From a virus, in the IMG/VR virus record IMGVR_UViG_3300042876_000208, positions 64,001-93,619 of that record: a stretch of 29,619 bases of DNA; one strand, written 5' to 3'. The notes under the pieces are model-generated. The model ran no database searches, was not told where the DNA came from, and worked only from the letters and a program-made list of their open reading frames with translations. The position numbers were made by a program, and so were the translations under genes. Below are positions 20,072-21,933 of the stretch, in pieces (position 1 is the stretch's first letter; the number at the start of each line of letters is the position of its first letter).

Positions 20072-20127
20072 TAGATTGCATACAGCAACTATAATTCTTA
20101 CTGCAAATAGAGAGAAAATGCAATCTA
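20072..20127 (+). ncRNA. Repeated structured RNA element C (AGAYT/ACAGCAA family)
   Basis: Closing stem TAGATTGCAT/ATGCAATCTA (10 bp perfect). ACAGCAACTATAA follows the 5' strand; ACAG can also pair with CTG further in, and CTAT with ATAG. It lies 43 nt upstream of the DUF2828 start codon, so it could be both a separate RNA and a leader element of that mRNA. Confidence 0.65.
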
Positions 20128-20170
20128 TGTTATTTCATTCAAATCAAGGATTAAGAAAAGGAGTATTGAA

Positions 20171-21589
20171 ATGACAAGGCTATTTAAGGCTCTAACAACA
20201 AATGACACAGTAACAACAAACGGAATGGTAACTAATTCCACATCCTCAAACTACCTATTGGATATGTTTTTCAGGATGGGTGGTTCAAGACAGATGGACG
20301 AGTCATCAATCCAGACCATGTTCCTAAACGCTTATCATGAGAACCCAGAATATGCTCTAAAGGCATTGTTCTACAATCGTGATATTCGTGGTGGGCAGGG
20401 TGAAAGACGCTCGTTTAGATTGATGTTTCAGGCTCTATGTATTGTAGACCCATCAACTGCAATTAGATTGATTAACTATGTTCCTGAGTATGGTAGATGG
20501 GATGACCTATTCGTAGCATTTGGAACAGATGTTTGGGAGTCTGTAACTGATTTAATCTTAAGCTCTCTAAAGCGTGGTGACAAGCTTTGTGCAAAGTGGA
20601 TGCCTAGACCTAACAAGGCAAAGGCTTACATTGCGAAGGATTTGGCAAAGGCTTGGGGTCTTTCACTAGATGACTATAGAGACTTAATTGTAAAGCATAC
20701 CGATGTAGTAGAAACTCTCATGTGCAAGAGAGAGTGGACTGCAATCAATTACAATCATGTTCCATCAAAGGCTAGCCATCAGTATAGAGGTGCATACCTA
20801 AAGCATGACGAGGATAGATACCGCGAGTGGCTGGGTAATCTAACTAAGGTTGATGAAAAGGGTAAGCCACTAGCTAAGGTAAATGCGGGTGCAATTTTCC
20901 CACATGATGTAATCAAGCCTTACTTTGGTTATGGCAACACAGATACTGATACATTGATTGAGGCCCAGTGGAAGGCACTTCCTGAGTATGCACCAAAGGG
21001 TAATAAGGTAATTTCTGTTTGTGACGTATCCGGTTCTATGAATGGTCTACCTTTGCTAGTATGTTTAGCATTGGGTATCTACACCGCAGAGAGAAACAAT
21101 GGTATCTTTAAGAATGGTTTCATTACATTCTCAGAGAGACCAGCTCTACAGATTCTTAAGGGTAAGACCTTGAGAGACAAGGTAAATGAACTACATAGAG
21201 CGCATTGGGATATGAACACAAATCTAGAGGCAGTATTTGAACTACTACTTACTTCCGCTAAGAGAGATAATCTATCCGAAGAGGATATGCCAGATACCAT
21301 CCTAATCCTATCCGATATGCAGTTTGATGCTTGTGTAAGAAATAAGAGCAACAGTGCTATTGATATGATTAAGAGAATGTATTCAGAAGCAGGATACAAT
21401 GTTCCTAATGTAATCTTTTGGAACTTGAATACAGGTAGTGGTATTCCAGTAAAGTATGATACTAGCGGCACAGCCGTTGTATCCGGGTTTAGTCCATCTA
21501 TTCTAAAGAGCATTATAAGTGGTAATATTAACCCAATTGCTCAGATGATGGAAGTTCTAAACTCAGAACGCTACTCAAAGATTAACTAA
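20171..21589 (+). CDS. DUF2828 protein with von Willebrand A domain (Ro60-like architecture)
   Basis: The 472-aa protein has an N-terminal helical region containing FYNRDIRGGQGERRSF (about 68-83) and PEYGRWDDLF, which I recognise as the DUF2828 signature. The C-terminal vWA domain has a complete MIDAS: DVSGSM (about 285-290), a Thr in MNTNLEAVF and SDMQFD. Helical repeats plus vWA is the layout of TROVE proteins such as Ro60/Rsr, which bind Y RNAs and misfolded or precursor RNAs. Given its place inside a tRNA array and between copies of a repeated small RNA, an RNA-binding role in tRNA or small-RNA handling is likely (inference). AAAAGGAG precedes ATG. Confidence 0.75.
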   Translation: MTRLFKALTTNDTVTTNGMVTNSTSSNYLLDMFFRMGGSRQMDESSIQTMFLNAYHENPEYALKALFYNRDIRGGQGERRSFRLMFQALCIVDPSTAIRLINYVPEYGRWDDLFVAFGTDVWESVTDLILSSLKRGDKLCAKWMPRPNKAKAYIAKDLAKAWGLSLDDYRDLIVKHTDVVETLMCKREWTAINYNHVPSKASHQYRGAYLKHDEDRYREWLGNLTKVDEKGKPLAKVNAGAIFPHDVIKPYFGYGNTDTDTLIEAQWKALPEYAPKGNKVISVCDVSGSMNGLPLLVCLALGIYTAERNNGIFKNGFITFSERPALQILKGKTLRDKVNELHRAHWDMNTNLEAVFELLLTSAKRDNLSEEDMPDTILILSDMQFDACVRNKSNSAIDMIKRMYSEAGYNVPNVIFWNLNTGSGIPVKYDTSGTAVVSGFSPSILKSIISGNINPIAQMMEVLNSERYSKIN

Positions 21590-21592
21590 AAG

Positions 21593-21656
21593 AATGGTGT
21601 GGTCAGGGAAAGACCTTAAATCGTTGTTCAAGTGAGCCCCAAGATAACAGCCATTT
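21593..21656 (+). other. tRNA-like remnant after the DUF2828 gene
   Basis: An outer helix AATGG/CCATT encloses a D-arm-like hairpin, GGTC-AGGGAAA-GACC, and a canonical-looking T-loop TTCAAGT without a good T-stem. No anticodon arm is visible. It is probably a decayed tRNA or an unusual tRNA-like RNA; it fills the gap between two protein genes. Confidence 0.35.
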
Positions 21657-21662
21657 CTAACT

Positions 21663-21878
21663 ATGAATAATTATTTGCAGTGGCAATGTTCAGCATCCGG
21701 TATAGAGTTTAATCCTAACGGATACATCACCGCAACCGGAATTTCAAATTTATATGAACCACAAGAGTATATACAAACTAGAGCTACCGTTGTTTTACAT
21801 AAGGTTAAATGTCCTTATTGCGGAAGCTATGGTGAAAGATTTAGTAATTGTACTCATTGTGGTGGTGCAATAGATTAA
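21663..21878 (+). CDS. Small zinc-ribbon protein, 71 aa
   Basis: The C-terminus holds CPYCGSYGERFSNCTHCGG, a four-cysteine zinc ribbon. The N-terminal half is strand-like and polar (GIEFNPNGYITATGISNLYE). The ribosome site is weak, but codon use and the intact ribbon argue for a real gene. It lies between the DUF2828 gene and element D. It may bind RNA or act as a small adaptor; there is no named family. Confidence 0.65.
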   Translation: MNNYLQWQCSASGIEFNPNGYITATGISNLYEPQEYIQTRATVVLHKVKCPYCGSYGERFSNCTHCGGAID

Positions 21879-21881
21879 CAC

Positions 21882-21933
21882 AGACTACATACAGCAAACA
21901 TACTTTGGGTAGCCACCCGCTTGGCAGTAGTCT
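21882..21933 (+). ncRNA. Repeated structured RNA element D (AGAYT/ACAGCAA family)
   Basis: Closing stem AGACTAC/GTAGTCT, identical in its seven pairs to element A, then AT and ACAGCAAACAT. The interior folds as GGGT/ACCC or, alternatively, GCCA/TGGC. It lies 3 nt after the zinc-ribbon gene stop and 6 nt before tRNA-Trp. Confidence 0.65.

Follow-up and report, generated by a model that had tools for sequence, protein, structure and literature searches.

The window analysed here, a stretch of 29,619 nucleotides of viral DNA (bases 64001-93619 of the 93.6-kb virus record IMGVR_UViG_3300042876_000208), contains a tRNA array in which a DUF2828 gene and four short repeated elements, A to D, are embedded. 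Our analysis makes it quite probable that the DUF2828 protein is of the Ro60 type, that elements A to D are its dedicated Y-like RNAs, and that the particle formed by the two most likely serves the care of tRNAs or other structured RNAs. The pairing of protein and RNAs is the part in which we have high confidence; a function in the quality control or repair of tRNAs or other RNAs is modestly favoured, and use of the particle against host tRNA cleavage is a tentative suggestion. What is new is a probable Ro/Y-type ribonucleoprotein whose protein and RNAs each form a separate family, the Ro/Y kind being already known.

The DUF2828 protein and the Ro60 fold

The gene (20171..21589, + strand) encodes a protein of 472 residues with a vWA domain at about residues 280-451. 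In Pfam it matches DUF2828 and DUF7788, the latter corresponding to the vWA part, with nothing else above the cut-off, and PHROGs assigns it to phrog_850, 'RNA-binding protein' (E 2.6e-130). The TROVE profile (PF05731), which defines the Ro60/Rsr family, has no match anywhere in the window's virus record. Since a sequence search of the PDB gave no credible relative, TROVE entries appearing only at E 1.7, the relation to Ro60 rests on the fold.

We aligned 64 of 66 listed DUF2828 proteins, which come from the window, from IMG/VR loci and from bacterial genome loci (L141 and L170 were omitted, and L006 was trimmed to a later start). The five residues of the metal-ion-dependent adhesion site (MIDAS, DxSxS...T...D), namely D285, S287, S289, T350 and D382, are invariant in all of them. 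The AlphaFold2 model computed from this alignment has a predicted local distance difference test (pLDDT) score of 92.3 and a predicted template modelling score of 0.90, and its N-terminal part is helical; a prediction from the single sequence reached a pLDDT of 43 and was discarded. When the predicted model was compared with PDB structures, all 11 matches at E<=0.001 were Ro60/TROVE proteins (Foldseek E 1.8e-9). With VIA-align, it superposes on Ro60 (1yvr) with Z 21.0 over 400 residues (root mean square deviation 3.9) and on the Deinococcus Rsr (2nvo) with Z 12.4, as against Z values of at most 10.6, over about 170 residues only, for unrelated vWA proteins. Identity to Ro60/TROVE proteins in these structure alignments is 10-15%. 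As modelled, the DUF2828 protein has the Ro60 architecture, in which helical repeats form a ring and the vWA domain closes it, in a family separate from TROVE. A preliminary description of the window had read helical repeats, a vWA domain with intact MIDAS and the general layout of Ro60 and Rsr from the sequence, and each of these features is borne out by the profile matches, the alignment and the full-length predicted fold. Comparison of a predicted structure with Ro60, one of the checks that it had named, thus comes out in its favour.

A family of RNA elements paired with DUF2828 genes

The four elements of the window lie on the + strand. Their ends pair perfectly over 7 to 10 bp, and TACAGCAA stands 0-2 nt beyond the 5' strand. 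Element A (15929..15991), with an 8-bp end stem and a TTACAGCAA loop, starts immediately past a tRNA-Lys gene and ends 4 nt short of tRNA-Pro; element B (16846..16903), with a 10-bp stem and a TACAGCAA loop, ends 2 nt ahead of tRNA-Leu. Element C (20072..20127) has a stem of 8-10 bp and a ATACAGCAA loop, and element D (21882..21933), with the same ATACAGCAA loop on a 7-bp stem, lies 6 nt ahead of tRNA-Trp. The spacing given in the preliminary description is exact: C ends 43 nt before the DUF2828 gene and D begins 292 nt after its stop codon. To these elements we applied a covariance model, R1, made from 39 viral elements hand-picked for clean ends out of 68 listed, mostly from other phages. 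Over the window at E<=10 it gives exactly four matches, which are A, B, C and D. Elements A (E 2.5e-5) and B (16847-16902, E 8.7e-7) were outside the training set; C (E 4.6e-8) and D (E 0.0034, the weakest of the four) were part of it.

Elements of the same plan, that is, paired ends, an ACAGCAA internal loop after the 5' arm and a variable insert, recur around DUF2828 genes. We scanned 100 viral or phage loci (the window and L003-L101; L001 and L002, which repeat the window, were omitted) and 80 bacterial loci (L102-L181) for motif and stem. On the strand of the gene and within 2 kb of it, 61 of the 100 viral loci carry an element, with 120 elements against 17 on the opposite strand, a count that takes in a few chance-looking ones. 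Within 1.5 kb, the figures for bacteria are 70 of 80 loci and 209 elements against 6; a stricter 1-kb test retains 69 of the 80. In a pairing-neutral test, every CAGCAA within 1 kb of the gene was taken and those bordered by a stem of 7 or more Watson-Crick pairs were counted. Such a stem flanks 110 of 199 gene-strand occurrences in the viral loci and 193 of 294 in the bacterial ones; in shuffled sequence, which preserves base composition but not dinucleotides, the expected counts are 5.0 and 7.8, respectively. On the opposite strand the corresponding numbers are 2 of 59 and 3 of 52. The 303 elements so defined (110 viral, 193 bacterial) carry 187 distinct stem sequences beside the motif, and up to 6 or 7 copies accompany a single DUF2828 gene.

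Covariation tells the same story for the stem. R1 has 44 matches in bacterial DUF2828 loci, all on the gene strand, in which each of the seven pairs varies in both strands of the stem and pairing holds in 99.3% of cells, a result equalled by none of 500 shuffles. This alignment was fitted to R1 and hence leans towards the model, a bias of which the CAGCAA test is free. The Y-RNA shape that the preliminary description saw in the repeated RNAs, with paired ends and a variable part, thus holds for the family. Applied to whole bacterial genomes, R1 matched in 3 of 10, with only 150 candidates scored per genome, which makes this search little informative; in one genome (G006, contig 5) a match lies away from the contig that bears DUF2828.

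Does the RNA follow the gene over whole phage genomes? Of 13 phage records with DUF2828, 12 are matched by R1, and the thirteenth, EFDG1, has two candidate elements by direct scan; among the six records with no element in the R1 training set, five are matched. R1 has no match in the whole records of four phages with a TROVE Ro protein, nor in those of T4, phage G, SPO1 and phiKZ, and a profile search of these eight phages found no DUF2828. In KVP40, Cronobacter phage S13, Ochrobactrum phage OC and LR756508, a distance of 7 to 50 kb or more separates the matches from the gene, which would imply action of the RNA in trans. Elements A and B of the window are more than 3 kb away from the gene.

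The converse search set out from the RNA. Three RNA patterns, each with one fixed stem and blind to the protein, were run on IMG/VR and matched 85, 82 and 3 stretches, of which 30, 45 and 0 contain DUF2828; all 75 of these genes are on the strand of the RNA. When whole records were searched, 33 of 40 viral records contained DUF2828 (the 40 were picked blind to DUF2828 among records whose contigs reach at least about 70 kb, a selection that leaves out several of similar length). This passage from RNA to gene is the strongest evidence for specificity. Co-occurrence across phages, which the preliminary description had put forward as a check, is therefore found from gene to RNA and from RNA to gene. 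It had also held that DUF2828 homologues routinely without the elements would speak against the idea: whole records do not show this (12 of 13, and the EFDG1 candidates), and nearby sequence does so in part, only 61 of 100 viral loci having an element within 2 kb.

Possible function and competing explanations

In bacteria, the neighbourhood of the gene gives a hint of function. Among 101 nearest open reading frames (ORFs), out of 132 listed for bacterial loci, no neighbour is as frequent as the RNA ligase RtcB, with 20 occurrences, and a WYL domain is found in 7. Over the 80 bacterial loci, RtcB is present in 30, each time on the same strand as DUF2828. Because housekeeping genes occur among the other neighbours, these loci are more probably chromosomal than prophage-borne, and the linkage to RtcB favours RNA repair. 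The rsr-yrlBA-rtcBA operon, and the linkage of Rsr to RtcB in some bacteria, have been described (PMC7790460). The Salmonella operon resembles the bacterial DUF2828 loci in joining a Ro-type gene, tRNA-like RNAs and RtcB, and differs from them in that DUF2828 takes the place of Rsr, that the elements stand in a row of up to 6-7, and that WYL proteins are neighbours. It differs as well from the window's phage, which has no RtcB. Care of tRNAs or structured RNAs appears likely because bacterial DUF2828 loci adjoin RtcB as in the Rsr-YrlA-RtcBA operon and because phage loci are often in or near tRNA arrays. As observations apart, the DUF2828 gene of Listeria phage A511 (L010 8803-12515) is followed by genes for two RNA ligases, one of them RtcB-like, and in a Mogibacterium metagenome-assembled genome (L121 498-4835) some 30 tRNA matches are packed beside a DUF2828 gene with six elements.

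The inserts give a second hint. T-arm-like hairpins are present in 51 of the 303 inserts, against 0.15 after shuffling. Several long inserts are ordered as T arm, acceptor 3' strand, short loop, acceptor 5' strand and D arm, which is the order of a circularly permuted tRNA. We computed folds for five of them (L014 6489-6613; L011 6154-6288; L006 11409-11545; L128 4762-4883; L013 5528-5649), and each minimum-energy structure contains both the T arm and the acceptor hairpin, although not every one forms the D arm. Elsewhere (L123, L172, L181, L116), an ordinary tRNA body with an anticodon arm sits inside the element stem. Bacterial YrlA RNAs, with their tRNA-like module, have the same known design. 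The tRNA-like modules evoked in the preliminary description thus exist in other members of the family.

On this basis we propose a mechanism in which the paired ends and the ACAGCAA internal loop would form a handle gripped by the protein. The variable insert would act as the effector, and in many relatives it mimics a tRNA, ordinary or circularly permuted; the particle would serve the care or repair of tRNAs or structured RNAs. The phage would gain a tRNA set kept in working order and a protected translation, for instance against host defences that cleave tRNAs. A broader formulation, which we put forward with reserve, posits a second Ro/Y system, separate from TROVE Ro and its Y RNAs and distributed among phages and bacterial chromosomes. 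An exchangeable repertoire of tRNA mimics, circularly permuted ones included, would sit on one fixed handle, the elements being lined up next to the protein gene and often next to RtcB, and might guard or replace particular tRNAs cut by nucleases of hosts or competitors.

Several observations weigh against the Ro/Y reading. The scan shows no nearby element at 39 of 100 viral loci (2 kb) and 10 of 80 bacterial loci (1.5 kb); as only 61 viral loci do have one, we conclude that the genomic position of the RNA is often remote from the gene. Seven of the 40 records found by the RNA patterns have neither DUF2828 nor TROVE, among them one (L366) matched by the window's own stem variant; these seven may be chance matches or fragments. 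RtcB is present in 2 of 13 DUF2828 phage records, and a search of the window's phage record found none. No T arm is visible by eye in elements A to D, and element D is a weak match. Finally, the very abundant RNAs proposed as Y RNAs in Listeria phage CKA15 (see below) were examined as members of the ACAGCAA family and ruled out by annotation and sequence.

Other explanations must be considered. Elements could be cis-acting controls of the DUF2828 gene, such as leader structures or riboswitch-like elements, and 244 of the 303 indeed lie upstream of it. However, 59 lie downstream, a single gene may have up to 6 or 7 copies, and the remote matches in KVP40, S13, OC and LR756508, like elements A and B, are too far off to fit easily, so that we regard cis control as very improbable. 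Just as improbable, or slightly more so, is the notion that the elements are commonplace features of tRNA arrays, spacer hairpins or processing sites, with no tie to DUF2828. Elements A, B and D do abut tRNA genes in the window, where their ends may therefore be released by the enzymes that process tRNAs. As general setters of element ends, these enzymes fit the window and fail in other loci, where few elements follow a tRNA: those starting within 15 nt past one number 13 of 112 in phages and 8 of 193 in bacteria. Moreover, none of the eight DUF2828-less phages has an element, even though in three of them, all among the four TROVE-Ro phages, tRNA genes adjoin the Ro gene.

Two further scenarios take up the link with RNA ligases. 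If RtcB or a phage RNA ligase joined the paired ends, the elements would be circular RNAs and the protein their chaperone; paired ends and the bacterial RtcB neighbourhood would suit this, but 11 of 13 DUF2828 phage records are devoid of RtcB, and we consider it improbable. A narrower form of the Ro/Y reading sees the tRNA-like RNAs as decoys or sensors for anticodon nucleases, stored by the ring protein and mended by RtcB or phage RNA ligases. It draws on the tRNA bodies with anticodon arms inside the stem, on the RtcB neighbours, and on the suggestion of Hughes et al. 2020 (PMC7790460), who name a tRNA-like domain in YrlA, that this domain could inhibit an anticodon nuclease. Yet YrlA was not cut by the nuclease studied in that paper, and most elements, including all four of the window, have no complete tRNA body; this form thus seems doubtful to us. 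The Ro/Y reading in its general form, a Ro60-type protein with dedicated Y-like RNAs, is the one that we retain.

Relation to known systems and further features of the window

The likeness to Ro60/Rsr extends to the full-length fold with its MIDAS, to partner RNAs encoded nearby and to the RtcB linkage in some bacteria; the difference is that the DUF2828 protein has no TROVE sequence match. Like bacterial Y RNAs and YrlA, the DUF2828-linked RNAs have paired ends, a variable insert, a tRNA-like module in some members and a place near a Ro-type gene, and unlike them they have a handle made of ACAGCAA after the 5' arm. R1 has no match in 12 TROVE loci (7 bacterial, 5 phage), a one-way comparison made with the DUF2828-side model only; few bacterial TROVE loci were found (4 in 299 and 3 in 398 genomes). 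By eye, the flanks of TROVE phage genes have a different repeated motif, such as GTTGATCGGTTA. In the TROVE-Ro Gordonia phages Cashline (L191 2294-2940) and BlueNGold (L192 2430-2940), we observed by eye pairs of Y-type RNAs that contain parts of tRNAs and in which a GTTGATCGGTTA or GTTGATTGGTTA-like motif recurs.

Phage proteins of the same family as that of the window are annotated as phrog_850 'RNA-binding protein' or 'Ro-like RNA binding protein'. Such annotations name the protein only, and among the records viewed no RNA partner is annotated, save a tRNA-OTHER beside an element in phage S13. The label now gains a concrete candidate RNA partner, and a bacterial tie to RtcB repair. In the collection, DUF2828 is commoner than TROVE Ro among phage records (682 against 340, in two separate listings whose overlap was not counted). 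The role of bacterial and phage Ro/Y particles is a long-open question, for which the DUF2828 system offers a separate family to study. Its phages infect E. coli, Mycobacterium smegmatis, Listeria and Staphylococcus, the handle can be mutated and the RNA family searched for, so that the hypothesis of a tRNA-care particle is testable in laboratory phages. The results point to a second, largely overlooked RNA-care machine of viruses and their hosts.

Ro-like proteins of phages have been noted in several papers (PMC7824862, PMC7765460, PMC12282133, PMC13148394), and that of phage LeBron, gp53, is reported to be toxic on overproduction (PMC13148394). A study of Listeria phage CKA15 identified its DUF2828 protein, CKA15_055, in purified virions with 20 peptides and 57.1% coverage, and the authors, who cite Chen et al. 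2014 for Y RNAs in mycobacteriophages, propose three abundant RNAs near its gene as possible Y RNAs; the CKA15_059-061 region is reported to yield most phage transcripts late in infection (PMC12282133). We find that this region (L198, OR088597.1, 3054-3605) matches ROOL over the whole model; its score of 90.1 bits (E 8e-19) falls a little short of the curated cut-off, 99.1 bits. Three ACAGCAA-family elements lie between CKA15_056 and CKA15_055. The Y-like RNAs of CKA15 are thus likely to be these elements, away from the abundant ROOL region, which bears on the published guess. A literature survey, made within one collection of papers, largely by listing and with the phage RNAs of Chen et al. 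2014 not compared, found no work linking DUF2828 with such RNAs; the four papers listed for the term DUF2828 were, by title, plant studies.

The tRNA array (15630..22942, + strand) encloses the DUF2828 gene and all four elements, and contains 17 tRNAs according to ARAGORN and 17 tRNA matches in Rfam. At gathering level, Rfam gave tRNA matches only in the window and 14 further loci (of 16 first chosen). Upstream of element C and the DUF2828 gene, a pattern match alone indicates a candidate sigma-70-type promoter (19905..19933, + strand), consensus at 12 of 12 positions with a 17-nt spacer. At 19953-20067 lies a tRNA-like stretch with matching acceptor arms (GCCGAGG/CCTCGGC), a T arm and an overlong middle; it is not called by ARAGORN, has a weak match to the 3' end of transfer-messenger RNA, and folds no better than shuffled sequences. 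A long hairpin at 22239-22291 (z -3.9), just 5' of tRNA-Asn, has an element-like shape, without ACAGCAA and with no R1 match. In or near the array, two ORFs resemble HNH endonucleases (17160-17678 and 24052-24594; NUMOD4+HNH_3, and HNH_5) and are likely mobile elements. A SLOG-family YAcAr protein (14923-15315) stands at the start of the rightward cluster.
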